The notes below the pieces were generated by a model that saw only the letters and a list, made by a program, of their open reading frames with translations, made no database searches and was not told the origin of the DNA. Shown here piece by piece: positions 1,296 to 61,792 of a stretch of 64,000 nt of DNA. The translations under genes were made by a program, and so were the position numbers. Origin of the DNA: a virus; IMG/VR virus record IMGVR_UViG_3300025652_000032, positions 1 through 64,000 of that record; one strand, 5' to 3'. Positions within the stretch are counted from its first letter, which is position 1; every line of letters begins with the position of its first letter.

Positions 1296-3290
1296 ATGTC
1301 AATACCACATCAAGCGTTTCTTGCCATGCTGGCAGAGAAACAACAAATTCTTAGAGACAACCACCTCATCGACATCACCGAAACCATGCGGACAGATATC
1401 CAAGAGGCCTCATGCGGAAACATGAAGATCGATGAACCTCTCAAGGGTAAGGGTTATCCATACAACGAGAAGACTTTCAAACCCCACATGATGTATGATC
1501 CCAAGACTGGTAAGGGTTACGAGGCGAAAACCTACCAAGATCACCTTGAAATGAAGAAGAAGGGTTATGACCATGAGAAACCTGAAGTCAAGGAAGATAC
1601 TGAGCAAGTTGATGAACTCAAGGTAAAAACCTTAAGATCATACATCAGCAAGGCACAGAAGGACAACACCCAGCGTGTCATTCGAATGACAGACAAACCA
1701 AGTCACATGAAAGCAGACAAGGGTGAGATGAAGAAGTTACGAAAGAGACAAAAGGGTGTGGCAAATGCGAAGACTGATATCGCCATGCGTAGGATTGCCG
1801 GTAAAGACTACAGGAAGCGTATGGGTGAAGACGTTGAACAGGTTGATGAAGCAACTCGACACACCGTGCATGTCGAAACAAACAGAGCAGGTTATAGAAA
1901 ACTCGAAAAATTGATTGCCTCTCTTGATGGTTATCAGGAATCAGAGTTTGAAAAAGAAGGAAAAGCAACTTTCAGATTCGACGCAAAGAAGCACGATGGC
2001 ACTGAACGTAAGAAGGTAGCAGAGTTTATCAAGAAAACAGCAGGTGTTGAGTTTAGTCATGCAATCAAAGAAGACAACGAACTCGCAGAGGGACCAGCAA
2101 CCCAGAACCCTCTCAAGACTGCATTCGGTGGTCTGAAGGCAGCAAAGGATACCCCTTCATATAAAGCATATATGAAGAGAGTGGAAAAAGAGCAGAAGGC
2201 CAGAGCAAAGAAAATTGCTGCGGAACGCAAGGCAGGAAAGCGTAGCAAGTACGAGAATGTTGATCCTACAGAGATCGCAGGTATCCACAAATTGCGTGAA
2301 GATGATTCAGTCAATCCTGAATACGAAGAGAACCTTTCCAAGATGAACATCGGTGAAATGTCTGCAAAGGCACACTACAAGAAGTATCAAGCAAAGTTTG
2401 TCGTACCACCTATCGACAGGAGTCGTCATCCCAACAGAGAGCGAGAAGGACTCGAAGGTCCATATCGTAGTAAAAAATCTGGTAAGGTTTTCTACTACGA
2501 CACAAAGGCAGGAAAATATTATGATGCTGACTCGGATATCTACTTACAGGTTTCTGATGTCATAGAACGATATGAGTCTGCCGATGTCGCAAGAGAAAGA
2601 GACGAAAAGGAACTCAAGGAGTCCTTTCAGTTTCAGTTCGCAGACAAAGAAACCGCACAGGAGTTCATGCGAGAAATCTCACAGAAAAGATTAGGATCTT
2701 CGACCGGAACCAAAGATGGTAAAGTCAGAACAGAGGGTCCAGCAGGAGCAGGTGTCGGTAGTCCAACACGGGCGCATCAACAGATGGCAAAGATCATGAA
2801 GAAGCATGGTGGTAAACTGATCTCGACAGACGAAGGTCCACGCATGAAGAAAGTGTTCAAGGAAGATGTCTCCTACGAGGGCAAGAAACCTTACTTCGAC
2901 ATGAGCAAGAAGAGAAAGTTCAATGTCCCAGATAAAAGGACGAGACTAAAGGACACAGGCAAAAACCCTGCCAAGAAACCATACCCCAAACAAGTCGGCG
3001 AGGAGATCGATATGATTAACGAAGATGATGTAGAACGCAGAGAGATTGAACTGTTCACATCCAACCACGCACAGATTTATCGTCAGCGTATCCAACCCAT
3101 CATCAAGAACCTTGCTAAGAAGAAGGCAAAGGGAAACTACGATGATAAACTTGCCATCAAGGCATGGACATACGCAGTCAACGATGGAATCAAGGCGTAC
3201 AACAAGGAGTTCGGCAGTTCCATCAAACTCTCAAAGGCGGAGAAGGATAAAGCAGCAGAGTACCTGTTGAAACACTTCGAAGACGAATGA
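1296..3290 (+). CDS. Modular lysine-rich phage protein of unknown function
   Basis: 664 residues, highly charged, and built from separate modules joined by acidic linkers. The linkers EDTEQVDEL (about residue 100), EDVEQVDEA (about 179), KEDNELAEG (about 255) and KEDVSYEG look alike and divide the chain into blocks. An early block contains repeated GKGY peptides (KGKGYPY, TGKGYEA). The last block (about 580-664) is a helical domain starting near REIELFTSNHAQIYRQ, a type I recall from other marine T4-like phages. The start is set by AGGAG eight bases upstream. A strong terminator follows the stop codon. It may be a virion or head-associated protein whose linkers are processed, because V-D-E and L-A-E resemble prohead-protease sites; that is inference. 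Confidence 0.75.
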   Translation: MSIPHQAFLAMLAEKQQILRDNHLIDITETMRTDIQEASCGNMKIDEPLKGKGYPYNEKTFKPHMMYDPKTGKGYEAKTYQDHLEMKKKGYDHEKPEVKEDTEQVDELKVKTLRSYISKAQKDNTQRVIRMTDKPSHMKADKGEMKKLRKRQKGVANAKTDIAMRRIAGKDYRKRMGEDVEQVDEATRHTVHVETNRAGYRKLEKLIASLDGYQESEFEKEGKATFRFDAKKHDGTERKKVAEFIKKTAGVEFSHAIKEDNELAEGPATQNPLKTAFGGLKAAKDTPSYKAYMKRVEKEQKARAKKIAAERKAGKRSKYENVDPTEIAGIHKLREDDSVNPEYEENLSKMNIGEMSAKAHYKKYQAKFVVPPIDRSRHPNREREGLEGPYRSKKSGKVFYYDTKAGKYYDADSDIYLQVSDVIERYESADVARERDEKELKESFQFQFADKETAQEFMREISQKRLGSSTGTKDGKVRTEGPAGAGVGSPTRAHQQMAKIMKKHGGKLISTDEGPRMKKVFKEDVSYEGKKPYFDMSKKRKFNVPDKRTRLKDTGKNPAKKPYPKQVGEEIDMINEDDVERREIELFTSNHAQIYRQRIQPIIKNLAKKKAKGNYDDKLAIKAWTYAVNDGIKAYNKEFGSSIKLSKAEKDKAAEYLLKHFEDE

Positions 3291-6076: not shown

Positions 6077-6149
6077 TTGTTTCTCCTATACTTTAAAAAC
6101 CTACATAGTATGTATATCATAGATAATTTTTATGAAAACGAGGACCGAC

Positions 6150-7349
6150 ATGAATTCATTCAGAGAGTTCTTATCTGAATCAAAAAACCTCCATATGGAA
6201 CACATTGAGGATGCTATCTTCAATGAGGGAAGCAAAGGCACCGTGGAGGCCATACGGTTCTTGGAATCAGTAACCGATATGCTTTCTGGAAACAGTAAGT
6301 CGTCGGTTAACATTACAGTGAAGTGGGATGGCGCACCGGCAGTGTTTGCGGGAGTCAACCCAGAGAATGGAAAATTCTTTGTCGGATCGAAGTCTGTCTT
6401 CAACAAGACAACACCGAAGATCAACTACACGAATGCCGACATCGACAAGAATCATCCGGGGGGACTTGGTACTACTCTAAAGGTAGCACTCAAGGAACTC
6501 AAAAAACTGAATATCGAGGGAGTATTACAAGGCGATGTCATGTTTACTTCCGACGGCATCGAGGTACAGGATATTGACGGCGAAAGTCACATCACTTTCC
6601 AACCAAATACCATCACCTACGCAGTGCCATCTAACTCCGATCTCGCAAAAGTAATTAAGCGAGCAAAGATCGGAGTTATTTGGCATACTAAATACACAGG
6701 TAAAACAATGGCCACCATGAAGGCGGGATTTAATCCAAACATTAGTAAGTTAGGTAAATCATCAAGCGTCTGGTATGATAATGCATCGTTTAAAGATACT
6801 TCGGGCGCCAGCACCTTTACGAAGGCAGAAGTGAAAACGATGCGTGGTCTTATTGATGCTGCCAAGAAGAAGTTCAAGGCAGCAGGATCTTTCATAGATG
6901 AGTTGCAAAATAGCGACTTAGTATCTGAAGTGAAGATCTATGGCAATGCTCAGATCCGAAAGGGTACATCGAGTTTGTCTGCGGCGGATTTCCAAAAACG
7001 TATGGAAGACAAGATGCAGACTGCCATAGATAATTTGAAGACAGATAGAGCAAAGGAACGGAAGCAAAAAGTAATGGATACCTCCATGAAGTTTTTGTCT
7101 AAGAACCGAAAAAAACTCCAATCTGTCTTTGATCTACATGATTCTCTGACTCAAGCAAAGATTTATACCGTCAGGAAATTAGAGAGGGTAAAAAATCTAG
7201 GCACGTTTATCAAAACAGAGAACGGATTCAAAGTCACGGCACCAGAAGGATTCGTTGCCATAGATAAACCATCAGGCAATGCCCTGAAATTGGTTGATCG
7301 ATTAGAATTTTCTAAACTTAACTTCACAGTATCTAAAAACTGGACATAA
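6150..7349 (+). CDS. KWDG-type ligase/nucleotidyltransferase-like protein with capsid-targeting N-terminus
   Basis: 399 residues from the ATG at 6150, which has GAGG six bases upstream; an in-frame ATG at 6132 lacks a ribosome site. Residues about 48-60 read VKWDGAPAVFAG, resembling motif I (KxDG) of covalent nucleotidyltransferases such as DNA and RNA ligases. Later VGSKSVFNK and EGVLQGDVMF occupy places where other ligase motifs would be expected. The N-terminus MNSFREFLSE followed by S has the same spacing as the T4 internal-protein targeting peptide, which is cut after residue 10. I infer a packaged ligase-like enzyme; neither activity nor packaging is shown. Similar proteins accompany nucleotidyltransferase genes in marine T4-like phages. 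Confidence 0.75.
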   Translation: MNSFREFLSESKNLHMEHIEDAIFNEGSKGTVEAIRFLESVTDMLSGNSKSSVNITVKWDGAPAVFAGVNPENGKFFVGSKSVFNKTTPKINYTNADIDKNHPGGLGTTLKVALKELKKLNIEGVLQGDVMFTSDGIEVQDIDGESHITFQPNTITYAVPSNSDLAKVIKRAKIGVIWHTKYTGKTMATMKAGFNPNISKLGKSSSVWYDNASFKDTSGASTFTKAEVKTMRGLIDAAKKKFKAAGSFIDELQNSDLVSEVKIYGNAQIRKGTSSLSAADFQKRMEDKMQTAIDNLKTDRAKERKQKVMDTSMKFLSKNRKKLQSVFDLHDSLTQAKIYTVRKLERVKNLGTFIKTENGFKVTAPEGFVAIDKPSGNALKLVDRLEFSKLNFTVSKNWT

Positions 7350-7360
7350 GGAGAATACAT

Positions 7361-7522
7361 ATGAGAAGAGCAGACGTAAGAAAAATTGATGATTCACGAC
7401 TTGGTAGAGCAAAACTAACAGCAAAGGGTGCTAGACCCGAACCAGTCGCTGAAGTAGTTAAACCAGTAGTTGCAGCAAAACCTGCACCTAAGAAGAAGAA
7501 GAGTAAATTTGGAAAGGATTGA
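7361..7522 (+). CDS. Small basic protein
   Basis: A 53-residue frame with a strong AAGGAG ribosome site eight bases upstream of the ATG. The N-terminal third is basic (RRADVRKIDDSRLGRAKL), the middle is rich in Ala, Val and Pro, and the tail is PKKKKSKFGKD, like a histone-type or linker tail. It lies 11 bp after the ligase-like gene and 3 bp before the next small gene, so the three are probably co-transcribed. A nucleic-acid-binding or packaged role is possible but unsupported beyond composition. Confidence 0.65.
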   Translation: MRRADVRKIDDSRLGRAKLTAKGARPEPVAEVVKPVVAAKPAPKKKKSKFGKD

Positions 7523-7525
7523 TAA

Positions 7526-7651
7526 ATGGAAGTAATTCAAAACGCATTAGGAACAGCATTTTACACCGTAGTAGTGTTTGCCGCCGGCGCACTCGTAGGT
7601 GTACCATTATGGAACTGGGTACGCAAGTTCTTCCCGTGGAATAAGGACTGA
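7526..7651 (+). CDS. Small single-span membrane protein
   Basis: 41 residues, with the ATG overlapping the end of the preceding gene's TGATAA run. Residues 9-29 form one hydrophobic helix (GTAFYTVVVFAAGALVGVPLW), followed by a basic aromatic tail, NWVRKFFPWNK, suggesting an N-out, C-in inner-membrane protein. The size would suit a small holin-like or regulatory peptide, but there is no endolysin nearby and no other support. I have a recollection of comparable short membrane proteins in marine T4-like phages. Confidence 0.6.
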   Translation: MEVIQNALGTAFYTVVVFAAGALVGVPLWNWVRKFFPWNKD

Positions 7652-7707
7652 TATCAGGCACGTTGGTGTCTCGGTGTCAACACTGCGGGAGGTGATCGGA
7701 AATCTAC

Positions 7708-9264
7708 ATGAAAAGTTTAAACGACTTTAAAACTTCAATTATGGAAAGTGCCAAGGATACAATTGTGTATACCTTTGGTCGATTTCAACCACCGACATCG
7801 GGACATCAACTCCTGATTGACAAGGTTATCTCTGTAGCGAAAAAGCAAGGAGCAGAACACCGCATTTACCCAAGTGTATCAAATGACCCTAAGAAAAATC
7901 CTCTGTCCCACACGGACAAGGTAAAGTTCATGAAGCAGATGTTCAAGAAAGCGAACATCGTGAATGATAAAAAAATCATCACACCCTTTCATGCCGCCAA
8001 ACAACTCAGCGATCAGGGTTACAAGAACGTAATCCTGATCGTTGGGGGCGACAGGGTTGCTGATCTACGCAAACAAATCACACAGTATATCGATCATCCA
8101 GATCCCAAGAAGGCATTTTACTTCGACTCGTTCAAGGTAGTCAGTGCAGGAAAGCGTGATCCGGATTCGAGCGATATCAGTGGCATGTCAGCATCAAAGA
8201 TGCGAAAAGCAGTAGGAGATAAAGACTTCGATCTGTTCATGCAAGGGATGCCAGACTCGGTGTCCAAGACAACAGCAAAGAGACTATACAACGCGATCGC
8301 AAAGGGTATGAACCTCAAGGAAGATCGTGATTATGCAGACGAATACAAAAAGCATCATGCGAGTCCTGAGCAGCGTGCAAGACGCATCTCACGCACTGTA
8401 ACCCGGAAAAAAGCAGAACGAGAGGGTAGAGTCGCTAAAGGAGACGGAAAGGATATAGATCACAAGGATCACAATCCACACAACGATTCCCCATCCAATC
8501 TCCGCATCAAATCCAAGTCCTCGAACAGAAGTGACAACGGACACAAACCCGGCGAGAAACAGAAGCAACACGAAGAGACTGAGGTTGATGAACTCACAAT
8601 TCAACAGCGAAGGAATATCTCTAAAGCAGCAAAGAAAACTGCCAAACGAAGACTGAAGACTAGACTTCGCAAGAAGAAGCAGAAAAAAGGTTCTGTAGAA
8701 CTCAAGAAAAAGGCAGGCAAAGAAGCGATCAATGCTCTCAAGAAAAAGTTCTTGAAAGGTAAGCGTTACGCGGATCTCTCCCATTCCGAAAAGGAAAGAA
8801 TCGATGGTAAATTGAAAAAAGTTCCCAAGGCCCGACTAGATGCCATCAGAAAAAAGATGATGCAGGTTGCCAAAGATAAAGAGAGAGAAAGACTCAAGAC
8901 CGCCCGTGCTGGTACGAATGAAGAGAAACTTGAACCAAAGGATCGGGAGATGGGAACCAAATCATGCACCGATACCTATGCAGACGATACACCCGGACAG
9001 AAGAGGATCAAGTCCTTCAAGGAAGCATGTTGGGATACCCATGTGCAGAAGGGCATGAAGAAAAAGGGTAACAAGATGGTTCCCAACTGTGTACCCAAGA
9101 ACGAGGATCTTGATGAAGTGTCTCCTCCCGGATTCGAGGGAACCGTAAAGGCGATGAAGAAGCATAAAGAAGTAGACAACCCATATGCACTCGCGTGGTA
9201 TATGAAGAATAAGGGTTACAAGTCACACAAGAAGAAAGACGGATCAGACAAAGACAAAAAATAA
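7708..9264 (+). CDS. Nucleotidyltransferase (cytidylyltransferase fold) fused to an HNH-like segment and phage modules
   Basis: 518 residues. Residues about 17-200 form a Rossmann-like nucleotidyltransferase: GRFQPPTSGHQLLI contains the (H/T)xGH signature, VGGDRVADLR is the central strand, and ISGMSASKMR resembles the ISxTxxR motif. The fold fits nicotinamide- or cytidylyl-transfer. Residues about 210-275 add a segment with IDHKDHNPHNDSPSNLR, an HNH-nuclease-like signature. A lysine-rich coiled region (LTIQQRRNISKAAKK onward) and two short modules ending in VPNC and KNKGYKSHKKK follow. The N-terminus MKSLNDFKTSIME followed by S resembles a capsid-targeting peptide. Start from the GGAGGT site 14 bases upstream. 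Confidence 0.82.
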   Translation: MKSLNDFKTSIMESAKDTIVYTFGRFQPPTSGHQLLIDKVISVAKKQGAEHRIYPSVSNDPKKNPLSHTDKVKFMKQMFKKANIVNDKKIITPFHAAKQLSDQGYKNVILIVGGDRVADLRKQITQYIDHPDPKKAFYFDSFKVVSAGKRDPDSSDISGMSASKMRKAVGDKDFDLFMQGMPDSVSKTTAKRLYNAIAKGMNLKEDRDYADEYKKHHASPEQRARRISRTVTRKKAEREGRVAKGDGKDIDHKDHNPHNDSPSNLRIKSKSSNRSDNGHKPGEKQKQHEETEVDELTIQQRRNISKAAKKTAKRRLKTRLRKKKQKKGSVELKKKAGKEAINALKKKFLKGKRYADLSHSEKERIDGKLKKVPKARLDAIRKKMMQVAKDKERERLKTARAGTNEEKLEPKDREMGTKSCTDTYADDTPGQKRIKSFKEACWDTHVQKGMKKKGNKMVPNCVPKNEDLDEVSPPGFEGTVKAMKKHKEVDNPYALAWYMKNKGYKSHKKKDGSDKDKK

Positions 9265-9268
9265 ATGG

Positions 9269-9276
9269 CATAAATA
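9269..9276 (+). promoter_or_regulatory. Late promoter variant (CATAAATA)
   Basis: CATAAATA lies just after the stop codon at 9264 and 33 bp before the ATG at 9309. The same variant precedes gp23 and the tail-fibre module in this window, which supports its use. Confidence 0.6.
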
Positions 9277-9308
9277 TATGTGACATTTAACCCAGAAAAG
9301 GAACCAAC

Positions 9309-9752
9309 ATGAAAAAGTTCAAAGAATTAAGAGAAGACATCCACGAAAGCACAGGTGGCGAAACCAGAGCAGGATTTGGCGTAGGTAAATCTGCCAGAGA
9401 CTCAATCGCAAACCTTAACGACATTACCTCTGAGGAATCACGAAGTGCAGTCAATGCGTTCATCGAATCATTCCTTAGTGGTCCATGTCTCAACCCCGGA
9501 CATAGACTAGCAGAACTTCGTGCTAGACTCAACACTGTAGGACTTTCGTTCGATATGGATCATAGAAATGTAGGACTCGGTGAACAGTCATACGGACTCA
9601 ACGCATACGGTGGTAGGTATGGGTTTGTTGATATGGACGGCGTAGTCAAGGAAGACGATGGCATCGAACCCAAGTTGGGTCGAAGTCTCTCCCTCAATGT
9701 GAATGTTACCTCCGATGGCGGAGAGTATAGAATGGAAGCAAAGATCGTATAA
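9309..9752 (+). CDS. Hypothetical with capsid-targeting-like N-terminus
   Basis: 147 residues. The first 17 residues (MKKFKELREDIHESTGG) have the form of a T4 internal-head-protein leader, with a candidate prohead-protease cut in IHE followed by S. The rest contains a helical FIESFLSGPCLNPGHRLAELRARLNTVGLSFD segment, then strand-rich sequence with NAYGGRYGFVDMDG. I do not recognise a fold. It is preceded by a late-promoter variant and followed within 4 bp by the next gene, consistent with a virion protein made late. Confidence 0.7.
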   Translation: MKKFKELREDIHESTGGETRAGFGVGKSARDSIANLNDITSEESRSAVNAFIESFLSGPCLNPGHRLAELRARLNTVGLSFDMDHRNVGLGEQSYGLNAYGGRYGFVDMDGVVKEDDGIEPKLGRSLSLNVNVTSDGGEYRMEAKIV

Positions 9753-9755
9753 AAT

Positions 9756-10133
9756 ATGAATTTTGATGAGTTGAATGATGCAAATTTCGTGATGTATGCG
9801 ATGAAGCATTATGAAAACCCACAGTTCACTGGTATTGAAGAGTTTCACGAAGACCTGAATAGAATAAAATATATCAAACGTCTTCTGAGAAAATACCACA
9901 AAACGAATGAACTACGGGAACGATTAATACTGAATCACTTAATAATAATGAACAACGTGTTTGATTGTGAACCGATGTGTCGTTTGTTATTTCATAAGAT
10001 CGATGAAGAATTGCAACCTCAACTCAAGACGTTTTTAGTTTACCTTAATTACTTACCAAGAAAAATCCCAAACATAGATCTAGAAGAGATCCCGTTGGAT
10101 CCTAGAATAGTAGAAAAATTGAGAGGCCTCTAA
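9756..10133 (+). CDS. Conserved marine T4-like phage protein, unknown function
   Basis: 125 residues, all-helical by appearance (NFVMYAMKHYENPQFTGIEEFHEDLNRI, IKRLLRKYHKTNELRERLILNHLIIMNNVF). I recall close relatives as conserved proteins of unknown function in marine T4-like phages. Three bases separate it from the previous gene, and its TAA overlaps the next ATG (TAATG), so the genes are likely translationally coupled. Confidence 0.75.
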   Translation: MNFDELNDANFVMYAMKHYENPQFTGIEEFHEDLNRIKYIKRLLRKYHKTNELRERLILNHLIIMNNVFDCEPMCRLLFHKIDEELQPQLKTFLVYLNYLPRKIPNIDLEEIPLDPRIVEKLRGL

Positions 10134-10822
10134 TGGGCGCAGTAGACGCATTCATCGCATACAAGTTTATCAAGATCTTAAGCACACCTTTTGATCAGAC
10201 TGATGCATATAAACTTGGAATCATCAATGCCGATGGTAAAGTTCTCAAGAAGAGAAAAGATCTTCAGGGAACCAATGAGAAAAAGGCGTATACAATTTTC
10301 CACCAAATTGGTTGGAACCTCAAGAGAATCCTAAACAAGATTCCCGGAACCAAGAGTAGATTTGGTTCCTTTGCTGCTGCTTTGTTTTTGCTGAAAGAAG
10401 AGGCAGAAGGTAAGTATACCGATTGGAATCTTGTAGAACAATATATCCTAGAGTATGCACAAGAAGAAGGTCTGCTGTTAACTGAAGACGTACCAGCAAA
10501 CAACGCTGGTTCTGGACAGGTTGCAGGACTCGGTGACGAACCTCCTGTGAAGAAGGGTATGACTGGGGACGTTCAGAGAAGAAACCAAGTCAAGGAAGGT
10601 TATGAATCCTTCGCTGGTGCGAGAGTGTTTGATGTTACCGAAGACGAGTACATGAAATGCAACTATGGAAGAACTAAACACGAAAGATGGAATCGCAAAC
10701 TCAAGATGGAAGATGTGGGTCGAGAAGACATCAAAAAGTTCGCCCATCGAAACCCTTCCAAGTCAGTAATTGTTAGAAACGAGAAAACTGGGGAGATGCA
10801 GTATCTACTCCGCAGGAGGTGA
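10133..10822 (+). CDS. Conserved phage hypothetical, two-part architecture
   Basis: 229 residues. The N-terminal part (about 1-110) begins with DAFIAYKFIKILSTPFDQTDAYKLGIINADG and is helical. A low-complexity linker (about 118-145) rich in Gly, Asn and Pro follows. The C-terminal part holds VFDVTEDEYMKCNYGRTKHERWNRKL and VIVRNEKTGEMQYL, a pattern I recall from marine T4-like phages without a known role. The stop codon lies within the ribosome site of the next gene, so the two are coupled. Confidence 0.75.
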   Translation: MGAVDAFIAYKFIKILSTPFDQTDAYKLGIINADGKVLKKRKDLQGTNEKKAYTIFHQIGWNLKRILNKIPGTKSRFGSFAAALFLLKEEAEGKYTDWNLVEQYILEYAQEEGLLLTEDVPANNAGSGQVAGLGDEPPVKKGMTGDVQRRNQVKEGYESFAGARVFDVTEDEYMKCNYGRTKHERWNRKLKMEDVGREDIKKFAHRNPSKSVIVRNEKTGEMQYLLRRR

Positions 10823-58306: not shown

Positions 58307-59788
58307 TCAGTCAGCAGCGTATACTGAACCGTCACCAAGGCCATGCAGGTTATCTACACGGAAGATTCGGTAATACTGGTTGATACGAACCGAACTGCTC
58401 GGATCTGCGTTCGAGACGAACGGGTTGTTTACCAGTCCGTAACGAGTCTTAAATCCGATCTTCGGCTGGAAGGAGTTCTCACCAACCGCACGAACCATCT
58501 GGAGTGGAACGTATGGGCAGTAGAACATACCAGCATCGTAAGGTGAAGTACCTCTGTAACCGACTGCAACGAAGTTCTTCGAAACAGAGTCAGTACCTGC
58601 ACCTGCGTATGGATCGACGTAAACCTTCATCTTACCGTTGAGGACACCAGCGAAAGTGCTGGCAGTGTCATCGACGTTAAGGTTGACGTTGAGAGCAGGT
58701 GAGATGTTGAGGAATCCACCCATTGCGAGGGCAGAAGCAACGTCTGCGGAACAGACGATGAAGTTACCCTTACCGCGTCGAGTTTCCTTAGCGATTACGT
58801 TTGCTTCACGTTCGATCTGGAACATGAGTCCACGGAATCTTTCAGCACTCCAACGACCGTCGGAGTCAGCATCTAAGTCGTAGATACCACCGAATGCAGC
58901 GGTCGCACCTGCGTGTCCAACGAGGTTAGCAGCAGTAATACCTACGGTCTTACTACGAAGATCGAGGTGCTGGGCACCAAGTTTCGCCTGACGATAGATG
59001 GTTCGAACGACTTCGCGGTTGATTTCAGCAAGGATTTCCGTGCTGAGAATGTTTGCGAGTTCAGTCTCTGCATCTAAACCGTGAACCGCCTTGAGATCCT
59101 GAGCGAGTTCAGTGGTGTACTCTGCCTTGAGGGCGCGAGTCTTAGCAACAACCGATGTTCTCTCGATAGAGAATGCCATCTCGTTGAATGCTTGTCCACT
59201 TGTACCGAGGTTTTCTGCTTCGGTAGTTGTCATTCCAGTACCAGCGTCAAGACCAGTTGCTGGAACGGTAGTTGCACTGTCACCAACACCATAACCCAGA
59301 AGTGGGTCAGCAGTGATACCACTGGTAACAATACCTGCGTGGCCAGCAGTGAGTCCTGCGAACTTGGTTGCTGGTTCGTTGAAGAGTGCCTCTTCACCGC
59401 TCTGATTGATGTACTTGCTCTTCATTGCAAAGATAAGTCCGGTAGGACCTGTCATTGGTTGCACACCACAGATGTCGTATGCCATCAGGTTGGGCATAGC
59501 ACGACGAACGAGAGAGATAAGAATTGGATCGTATCCCTGCATGTTCGAGTTACTGTTGTTTGCAGCAAGACCAAGACCACCTTGGCTAGCGTTAGCAGGT
59601 GCTTCCGAGATGAACTCTCGTCCCTCGGCATGTGCCTGTTCACGAAGAGCATTCTCTTCGTTCTCAAGAAGAATCGCAGTTACGTTCCTCTTATAGTTGT
59701 CGTCGATCGACGGAAGATCTGAATGTTCAAGAAGTGGTTTCCACTTCGAGGTTAATTCGTCTACATTGAATGTGTTATTCGGGTCCAT
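58307..59788 (-). CDS. 23: Major capsid protein gp23
   Basis: 493 residues (T4: 521). NASQGGLGLAANNSNSNMQGYDPILISLVRRAMPNLMAYDICGVQPMTGPTG-type sequence, FIVCSADVASALAMGG and RIFRVDNLHGLGDGSVYAAD are strong gp23 signatures (long segments abbreviated). The prohead protease should cut near residue 66 (FISE followed by A). It is bracketed by its own late promoter and terminator, suiting very high late expression. Confidence 0.97.
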   Translation of the reverse strand: MDPNNTFNVDELTSKWKPLLEHSDLPSIDDNYKRNVTAILLENEENALREQAHAEGREFISEAPANASQGGLGLAANNSNSNMQGYDPILISLVRRAMPNLMAYDICGVQPMTGPTGLIFAMKSKYINQSGEEALFNEPATKFAGLTAGHAGIVTSGITADPLLGYGVGDSATTVPATGLDAGTGMTTTEAENLGTSGQAFNEMAFSIERTSVVAKTRALKAEYTTELAQDLKAVHGLDAETELANILSTEILAEINREVVRTIYRQAKLGAQHLDLRSKTVGITAANLVGHAGATAAFGGIYDLDADSDGRWSAERFRGLMFQIEREANVIAKETRRGKGNFIVCSADVASALAMGGFLNISPALNVNLNVDDTASTFAGVLNGKMKVYVDPYAGAGTDSVSKNFVAVGYRGTSPYDAGMFYCPYVPLQMVRAVGENSFQPKIGFKTRYGLVNNPFVSNADPSSSVRINQYYRIFRVDNLHGLGDGSVYAAD

Positions 59789-59843: not shown

Positions 59844-61100
59844 TTACGAAACTTTGTTTGGTGATGAAGTTCTACTGATTGCTTGTGAATACAATGACAT
59901 TACAGGATCTGTGATTGGATCTTGCACAGTTTCCTCTGAATCTGTCTGGGGTGCTTCATTGAAGAGTTCGGTCTTCTTTGAAAATGCATGAGTACCAAAG
60001 TAACTTTCTTTAATTACGTTGATCTTCTCCCGGTACTGATCTTCTGTCTCGTACTCAATTCCTTCGACTAACGAACGAAGTTTCTCAACCTCGGTGTCCG
60101 CTAAGTCTCTTGATACCTCAGAGAACACACCATCACAGGTGGACTCTAAGATGTCCTTACGGAGTTCTACATTGTTTGTGATCTGCTCATTGAGCGAATC
60201 TTCGAGATCGCTAACCTTGGTTGCGAGTTCTTCAATCAGATCAGTCTTCTCATCGGGGACATCAATGTATGATTCCTCGAAGAGATTCTTGAGTCCGACC
60301 ATGAAGTCTTCGGCGATTTCGGTTCTAAGACCGTTGGTGATTGCGAGTTCATTATCCTTCATCCACTGTTCTACAACATAACCCAGATAATCATCTACTT
60401 TAGTTGTCAACTCATCAGTGATTGACTCAACTTGCTCTGCGAGTTGAGTGTTGTGGTTCTCAGTTAACTCCTCTTCGATTGCAGTGACTCTTTCGTTTAC
60501 TGCTGCTTCGAAGATGGTAGTTGCCTTTGTACGGAAGTCTTCGGTAAGTTCTTCACCAGTGAAGAGAGCGTCAATATGCTCCTTCATGTTTGGTTTCTCA
60601 ACCTTACCCTTACCCTTTTTACCGGCAGGAACATCAGTTGCTTTCTTACCATCAGTTGCCTGGTTGTCGTCAACGTCAAGAATAGTCTTTGCGACGTTCT
60701 TTGCTTGATCCATGTCGGCAGTTTCTTCGACTTCTTCCTTGTCGTCGTCATCGTCTTCACCCTTTTTCTTCTTCAAGTTCTTTACGAACTGGGGTGGGAC
60801 TTTGCCTTCTTCGACTTCCTTATCTTCATCCTCGTCCTCGTCCTCGTCTTCCTCTTTCTTCATCTTAGAAGCGTTCATTTTACCGTAACCTTCTTCGACC
60901 TTAGCGAGTTCTTCTTGAAGACGTTCTGTGATCTCTTCGGATGAAAGAGTCTTCCAATCAGAAAGTGCTTCTGCGATATCATCGTCAGATGCACCATTGT
61001 TTTTCATAAGGGTATGCATCTTGGCCATCTGAAGACCAAGATCTGAGTCAGACATCGATTCGTCTAACTGAACTTCTTTTTCTGTGTTATTAGTAGCCAT
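59844..61100 (-). CDS. 22: Prohead scaffold gp22
   Basis: 418 residues, longer than T4 gp22 (269). It is acidic with a run of Glu/Asp-Asp repeats (about 85-125), then PNMKEHIDALFTGEELTEDFR and long coiled-coil helices, ending in a short PVMSLYSQAISRTS peptide typical of gp22. It forms the prohead core and is destroyed by gp21. The extra length lies mainly in the acidic N-terminal part. Confidence 0.92.
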   Translation of the reverse strand: MATNNTEKEVQLDESMSDSDLGLQMAKMHTLMKNNGASDDDIAEALSDWKTLSSEEITERLQEELAKVEEGYGKMNASKMKKEEDEDEDEDEDKEVEEGKVPPQFVKNLKKKKGEDDDDDKEEVEETADMDQAKNVAKTILDVDDNQATDGKKATDVPAGKKGKGKVEKPNMKEHIDALFTGEELTEDFRTKATTIFEAAVNERVTAIEEELTENHNTQLAEQVESITDELTTKVDDYLGYVVEQWMKDNELAITNGLRTEIAEDFMVGLKNLFEESYIDVPDEKTDLIEELATKVSDLEDSLNEQITNNVELRKDILESTCDGVFSEVSRDLADTEVEKLRSLVEGIEYETEDQYREKINVIKESYFGTHAFSKKTELFNEAPQTDSEETVQDPITDPVMSLYSQAISRTSSPNKVS

Positions 61101-61150: not shown

Positions 61151-61792
61151 TTAGAGTCTACTTAAAAAGTCCTTGAATGCGTTTAGTTTTGTTTCATTGA
61201 GTTCGGCAGAAGATGCTGAACTAATCATCTTCTGATAACTGTCGATAACCTGTTCTCTCATGAGTCCGTTATCCCAAACCCATTGCTTACCTTCCATGAT
61301 TCCGTTAACGAAAGCATCTGGTGCAGATGGGTCTGCCACAATGTCTACAGCAGATAACATGAAGTCCTTCTGAACTTCATTAACTCCGCCTCTTTCTTTC
61401 AAGGTTCCCATACCACGAGACGATACACCTAACTTTGCTCCCTCATCCATCAGATTTTTTACGATCTTTCCGTATGGGGTTTCTAGGATTTTCGCCTTAC
61501 CAATGATATTGTCATTTTCTTCACGAAGGTCGTTGATGATGTGGGACACACGTTCCAGATTGACCGTCGGTCCTTCTGGATGCCCTAATTCACCCATTGC
61601 TCGATTCTTCTGTACATACTCTTTATTATATCGCCTTACTTCATCAAGAAGAGTCTTCTTGGGATATACTCTTCCGTTGCGATTTTTCTTTTCTGCCTGC
61701 ATGAAGATGCCTTCAATGAAGTATTGCTTCTCTCCATTTTTCTCTTCAGTCAGAAATCTAACGTCTTCAGTTGTCTCGGTGATAAGAAACAT
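61151..61792 (-). CDS. 21: Prohead protease gp21
   Basis: 213 residues (T4: 212). GIFMQAEKKNRNGRVYP, GELGHPEGPTVNLERVSHII with the catalytic His, and KLGVSSRGMGTL with the catalytic Ser are conserved. It cleaves head proteins after hydrophobic-X-Glu during maturation, relevant for the targeting peptides found at 6150, 7708 and 9309. ATG overlaps the upstream stop by one base. Confidence 0.95.
   Translation of the reverse strand: MFLITETTEDVRFLTEEKNGEKQYFIEGIFMQAEKKNRNGRVYPKKTLLDEVRRYNKEYVQKNRAMGELGHPEGPTVNLERVSHIINDLREENDNIIGKAKILETPYGKIVKNLMDEGAKLGVSSRGMGTLKERGGVNEVQKDFMLSAVDIVADPSAPDAFVNGIMEGKQWVWDNGLMREQVIDSYQKMISSASSAELNETKLNAFKDFLSRL

Follow-up and report, generated by a model that had tools for sequence, protein, structure and literature searches.

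Leaders of three consecutive genes in a marine T4-like virus resemble the capsid-targeting sequences of T4

Do marine relatives of T4 carry enzymes into the host together with their DNA, and can such cargo be recognized from its N-terminus? This question is raised by three plus-strand genes (6150-7349, 7708-9264 and 9309-9752) in the first 64 kb of IMG/VR record IMGVR_UViG_3300025652_000032, hereafter called the window. The source record is a marine T4-like virus of 128,029 bases and 115 open reading frames (ORFs). The genes encode a protein of family DUF6267, a multi-module protein with a cytidylyltransferase/NMNAT-like domain (the 7708 protein) and a protein of 147 residues, and each starts with a short leader. 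Leaders are also carried by the internal proteins of T4, which were found in T-even phages through this sequence; these proteins are injected and act as inhibitors of type IV restriction enzymes (PMC12373910, PMC9026906). We consider it likely that all three leaders serve capsid targeting in the same way and would load their cargo for cleavage, packaging and injection. For this phage the reading is well supported but unproved, and its strength comes from comparison with related sequences.

The three N-termini, MNSFREFLSE/S, MKSLNDFKTSIME/S and MKKFKELREDIHE/S (a slash marks the predicted cut), are exactly as the preliminary description had given them. The first has ten residues with F4, F7, L8 and E10 before the serine, and its start at 6150 is favoured over a longer in-frame ATG at 6132 by an upstream GAGG and by homologues that start at the same place. 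The other two share a 13-residue form, L4/F7/I11/E13 at 7708 and F4/L7/I11/E13 at 9309. Mutagenesis of T4 IPIII showed that positions 4 and 7 matter for targeting and positions 8 and 10 for processing (PMC9026906), and we took the four positions of our 10-residue rule from that work (hydrophobic at 4, aromatic at 7, aliphatic at 8, Glu at 10). Like T4-type capsid-targeting sequences, the leaders are N-terminal, hydrophobic at positions 4 and 7, and end in hydrophobic-x-Glu. Across all 115 ORFs of the genome, only these three match the 10- or 13-residue rule. Shuffled N-termini gave chance expectations of 0.056 and 0.11 matches, respectively, and a probability of 0.001 for at least three leaders in the genome. 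By itself the 13-residue rule is weak, with 24 matches against 8 for a Lys/Gln control; conservation among homologues of the 147-residue protein makes this longer leader convincing.

The same genome encodes the machinery that such leaders would need. On the minus strand of the window lie genes for a gp20-like portal, a gp21-like prohead protease, a gp22-like scaffold and gp23, so that a gp21-type protease, a gp22-type core and gp23 are co-encoded with the three leader genes, as expected of a T4-type capsid-targeting system. Moreover, the predicted cleavage site of the phage's own gp23, REFISE/A, resembles the REFLSE/S of the DUF6267 leader.

We then asked how the leader is distributed among 3,534 distinct ORFs of collected phage DNA. 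ORFs matching the rule at its other positions had Glu at residue 10 in 104 cases, Lys or Gln in 5 and Asp in 7, a raw count that is inflated because homology to DUF6267 served in part to assemble the collection. The leader-bearing set comprises 108 distinct proteins from 35 families whose mature parts are unrelated, again as found for T4-type capsid targeting. With one representative per family, positions that had not been selected were enriched as well: Lys at 2 (21/35, background 0.155), Ser or Thr at 3 (18/35, 0.164), Glu or Gln at 6 (19/35, 0.123) and Ala at 11 (11/35, 0.070). These are the residues of the T4 leader MKTYQEFIAE/A. Applied to T4 as a control, the rule returned ipII, ipIII and gp61.1. 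The last is a hypothetical protein of 54 residues (AF158101 18966-19130; L192 267-431) starting MKTFKEFIKE/D, which may, from its sequence, be an unrecognised T4 internal protein. Looser rules were dropped, as they catch UvsY-like and other ordinary N-termini.

The leader behaves as a module that is gained and lost between orthologues. On contig L078 (737-7026), nine consecutive genes for unrelated proteins carry an MKSFKQY-type leader or a close form, and a tenth copy lies at the junction of an in-frame fusion (2780). Among the encoded proteins are a PolyA_pol/CCA-type enzyme, a kinase of the AAA_33/zeta type and a DUF6267 protein. Most DUF6267 homologues from viral contigs keep a leader from Met to Glu, usually of ten residues; the orthologues S-SZBM1_141 (MAKNTHLEH) and that of P-HM2 (MSKNTHLEH) have none. 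In Melnitz phage (MZ577097), N-termini resembling the leader occur on the DUF6267 protein and on proteins of 130 and 361 residues.

Published virion proteomes link the leader to the finished particle. In S-CREM2 (PMC10665884, Table 3), five of the six proteins matching the strict rule were detected in virions (Fisher P = 0.0033): the S-adenosylmethionine (SAM) hydrolase gp6, gp13, the kinase gp14, gp136 and the cytidylyltransferase gp154. The sixth, undetected one has 55 residues. When S-CREM2, S-SCSM1 and S-SZBM1 were pooled, 6 of 11 leader proteins were detected against 2.2 expected (P = 0.01). All four virion-detected cytidylyltransferases bear a leader, namely MKNFSSFLTE/A in S-CREM2, MKKFSAFLNE/A in S-SM1, MKSFLQFLKE/A in S-SCSM1 and, in a form of only nine residues, MRFRQFIIE/A in S-SZBM1 (PMC3037559, PMC9602691, PMC9146016). 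The leader-less homologue of S-PM2 was not detected (PMC3037559), in a proteome that missed structural proteins too, and the leader-less DUF6267 homologues S-CREM2 gp87 and S-SZBM1_141 were likewise undetected in virions. The mass spectrometry (MS) evidence concerns cytidylyltransferases and other leader proteins of relatives. S-CREM2 virions also contain gp156, a protein with a nucleotidyltransferase domain, and the phage-encoded Cas9 (gp12; L094, 7704-10313), which has an internal leader-like LRFASFMAE/A near its N-terminus. Two similar proteins of 105-106 residues, S-SZBM1_191 (L099 22311-22640) and SSCSM1_30 (MK867354 44215-44535, L277), have strict leaders (MKSFKSFLSE/SVNISGDFNGN) and were found in neither virion proteome.

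Several points weigh against capsid targeting. The Glu is frequently followed by D, E, Q or K, a choice less restricted than at known gp21 sites. The 10-residue rule is not complete, since it misses T4 ipI and Alt, and the N-termini of S-CREM2 had already been viewed before its residue classes were fixed. Taken singly, S-SCSM1 had one of two strict-rule proteins detected (by the 'virion protein' labels of its GenBank entry, which number 48 of 282, against 45 in the paper), and S-SZBM1 had none of three among the 30 proteins in its table, so that in S-SZBM1 the association between leader and detection was not reproduced. Both the S-CREM2 and the S-SCSM1 authors note that carry-over after caesium chloride purification is possible. 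A cut leader was not found in the accessible peptide data of any marine phage, and the accessible virion proteomes include no leader-bearing homologue of the DUF6267 protein or of the 147-residue protein.

What would the three proteins do? The DUF6267 protein holds the K-x-D-G lysine motif and motifs III to V of covalent nucleotidyltransferases; K58, D60, G61, Q127-G128-D129, E366-G367 and K380 are invariant in 37 homologues. The PF19782 match starts only at residue 13, and the leader falls outside it. An AlphaFold2 model (mean predicted local distance difference test score, pLDDT, 84.9) aligned in VIA-align with Naegleria Rnl (Z 9.0, 186 residues, 3.9 Å) and with TbREL1 (Z 7.6), T4 Rnl1 (7.4) and T4 Rnl2 (7.2), where values below about 8 may be background; the top 22 alignments were RNA or tRNA ligases throughout. 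Foldseek alone gave no significant match, and the DUF6267 profile matched no sequence of a solved structure. Because the Foldseek result was not significant and the lower Z values are possibly background, the assignment draws on the motifs and the fold in combination. These support an RNA-ligase-like enzyme, in line with the earlier label 'ligase-like'. In contrast to the RNA ligases, which share the motifs and a similar fold, the DUF6267 protein has only about 10 percent identity and a different helical part, and ligase activity is a prediction.

The 7708 protein looks like a polyprotein. Its residues 296-409 are a strongly basic segment of 114 residues with a net charge of +30, and its C-terminal 48 residues (VSPPGFEGTVKAMKKHK...) recur in many phage proteins. 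Hydrophobic-x-Glu stands directly before this PPGFEG module in 36 of 40 distinct contexts, or 38 of 40 after a register shift of one residue. In four loci it forms a stand-alone mini-protein right behind a leader, as in MKSFIQYLNE/VSPPGFEG and MRSFKQYLNE/VSPPGFKG. As the module follows hydrophobic-x-Glu, sometimes immediately after the leader, leader end and module junctions are one motif, as a common protease would require. The predicted products would be a cytidylyltransferase domain of 192 residues, an HNH-like segment, the basic segment and smaller pieces. Neither the PPGFEG module nor the Cys-containing module has a Pfam family. Another module, of 45 residues (PPGFEGTVKAMKK..NPYALAWYMKNKGY; L194-L273), is shuffled among many phage proteins and has no match in Pfam or PHROGs.

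The 147-residue protein belongs to no family in Pfam or PHROGs. A fold search was uninformative, returning only uncharacterised phage proteins from BFVD and a best Z of 4.0 in the PDB. Among 16 homologues, no more than 11 columns are invariant or nearly so; M1, K2, F4, K5 and E13 of the leader account for five of them, and the 30 residues past the leader vary freely. Some members have a shorter leader substituted, for example MKNFKNHIAE/E. In the models of both this protein and the DUF6267 protein, the leaders are of low confidence and lie outside the folded domain.

Table 1. Features of the leader cluster, its neighbour and the head genes in the window (a slash marks a predicted cut).
Feature	Position	Strand	Remarks
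DUF6267 (PF19782), RNA-ligase-like nucleotidyltransferase	6150..7349	+	K58-x-D-G, Q-G-D127-129, E366-G367, K380 invariant
10-residue leader MNSFREFLSE	6150..6179	+	predicted cut before Ser11; spacing as in DUF6267 homologues
Multi-module protein	7708..9264	+	cytidylyltransferase/NMNAT-like domain (14-205), HNH_3 region, basic segment, Cys-containing module, PPGFEG module
13-residue leader MKSLNDFKTSIME	7708..7746	+	predicted cut before Ser14
HNH-like segment	8323..8592	+	between predicted sites NLKE/D and EVDE/L
CW..PNCVP module	9025..9117	+	between predicted sites SFKE/A and DLDE/V
VSPPGFEG module	9118..9261	+	elsewhere a stand-alone leader+module mini-protein
147-residue protein	9309..9752	+	conserved leader and folded domain (41-147), joined by a variable linker of low confidence
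13-residue leader MKKFKELREDIHE	9309..9347	+	predicted cut before Ser14
229-residue neighbour	10133..10822	+	internal gp23-like junction LLTED/VPANNAGSGQVAG, no N-terminal leader; synteny downstream of cluster conserved
gp23 major capsid protein	58307..59788	-	predicted own cut HAEGREFISE/APAN after residue 62
gp22-like scaffold	59844..61100	-	
gp21-like prohead protease	61151..61792	-	

The first two genes of the cluster belong together elsewhere: their families form one fused family in PHROGs (phrog_455), and DUF6267 and cytidylyltransferase genes are near neighbours in S-PM2, P-HM2, HTVC008M and S-SM1. The idea that one of the pair always bears a leader proved not to be strict, as the rule finds no leader on either protein in HTVC008M, S-PM2 and P-HM2. 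Downstream, S-SM1_197, which is syntenic with the 229-residue neighbour, is annotated 'major head protein'. Upstream, at 1296-3290, a 664-residue protein without a leader has repeated hydrophobic-x-Glu sites (EQVDE, MGEDVEQVDE, HAIKE, KVFKE) and is perhaps another polyprotein for the prohead protease.

These observations fit a mechanism that, by analogy, is that of the T4 internal proteins. Late in infection, the leader, with its hydrophobic residues 4 and 7 and terminal hydrophobic-x-Glu, would dock each protein on the prohead's gp22-type core. Cleavage behind the Glu by the gp21-like protease would then remove the leader, and the mature protein would remain with the packaged DNA and enter the next host together with it. 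This cargo would be the RNA-ligase-like DUF6267 enzyme, the cytidylyltransferase/HNH polyprotein, whose internal hydrophobic-x-Glu junctions are probably cleaved as well to give basic modules, and the 147-residue protein. The preliminary description had predicted T4-like capsid targeting of these proteins. The shared leader on unrelated proteins, the published MS data of relatives and the co-encoded gp21, gp22 and gp23 bear out part of it; docking, cleavage, packaging and injection, as well as the role of the enzymes, are steps that we infer for this phage.

The same leaders could be read in other ways. They might be docking tags for the prohead core on proteins that work in head assembly, as core or scaffold accessories, and are then degraded or lost instead of being injected. 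T4 internal proteins do co-purify with gp22, IPIII influences head morphogenesis (PMC9026906), and many small leader proteins went undetected in virions. We nevertheless regard such a role as unlikely, given that some of the cargo proteins are enzymes whose catalytic motifs are conserved and that several leader proteins are present in finished virions. It is very improbable that the likeness comes only from 5' gene ends, with ribosome-binding and start region, that have moved or been duplicated and play no part in targeting. Two of the L078 leaders (3504 and 4031) are codon-identical, which indicates that 5' ends do recombine, but the codons used at positions 2, 4, 7 and 10 differ synonymously from one leader protein to another, the three window leaders are not alike in their codons, the Glu is retained while other residues vary, and the leader is tied to virion detection.

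Hardly credible, finally, is a chance similarity of ordinary N-terminal helices belonging to each fold. It could draw on the sizeable false-positive rate of the 13-residue rule and on the UvsY homologues that pass loose rules. Against it stand the 35 families that have the leader in common, orthologues of the same fold that do without it, and its place outside the PF19782 match and in low-confidence parts of the models.

Compared with known systems, the capsid-targeting reading comes closest to T4 IPII and IPIII (MKTYQEFIAE/A, cleaved by gp21): the leader is N-terminal, has ten residues with hydrophobic positions 4 and 7, ends in hydrophobic-x-Glu and is common to unrelated proteins, in a genome with homologues of gp21, gp22 and gp23. 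In contrast to T4, the phage group is another one, the cargo consists of enzymes rather than small restriction inhibitors, a 13-residue form occurs, sites are reused as module junctions, and cleavage is predicted from sequence. The mature parts are not homologous to IPI, IPII or IPIII; in Pfam and PHROGs they match DUF6267 and cytidylyltransferase/HNH_3, with none for the 147-residue protein. The virion cytidylyltransferase/NMNAT proteins of S-SM1, S-SCSM1, S-SZBM1 and S-CREM2, detected by MS, share the homologous domain and an N-terminal leader with the 7708 protein, and in S-SM1 DUF6267 adjoins the cytidylyltransferase; unlike them, the window homologue combines a leader of 13 residues with a long modular tail. 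A targeting leader is not named in the accessible parts of the source texts on these cyanophage proteins, and a search of the open literature, excluding subscription papers, for capsid targeting in cyanophages found only the T4 review. A further parallel is offered by the ejection proteins of phiKZ and SPN3US: many head proteins are matured after Glu by a gp21-like protease and some are delivered to the host (PMC9026906), although phiKZ uses the motif S/A-x-E and belongs to a different phage group.

A more far-reaching proposal, possible but rather doubtful, is a capsid-delivered kit for RNA or nucleotide repair under one common capsid tag, made up of DUF6267 and cytidylyltransferase/NMNAT and, in relatives, of a P-loop kinase and an enzyme resembling CCA/poly(A) polymerases. 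Such a kit would act on entry, for example by mending tRNAs or restoring nicotinamide adenine dinucleotide (NAD+) hit by host defences, with short basic peptides from the polyproteins acting alongside.

Because the same tag sits on dozens of unrelated proteins, several of them in virions, marine T4-like phages probably introduce into the cell, along with their DNA, enzymes that modify RNA and nucleotides. A readable ten-residue tag would explain the presence of enzymes such as cytidylyltransferases in cyanophage virions, for which the source papers left carry-over possible, and would let the injected cargo of ocean phages be predicted from sequence. The large family DUF6267 gains a hypothesis for both role and fold, and the apparent RNA- and nucleotide-modifying nature of the cargo points to functions needed in the first minutes of infection.

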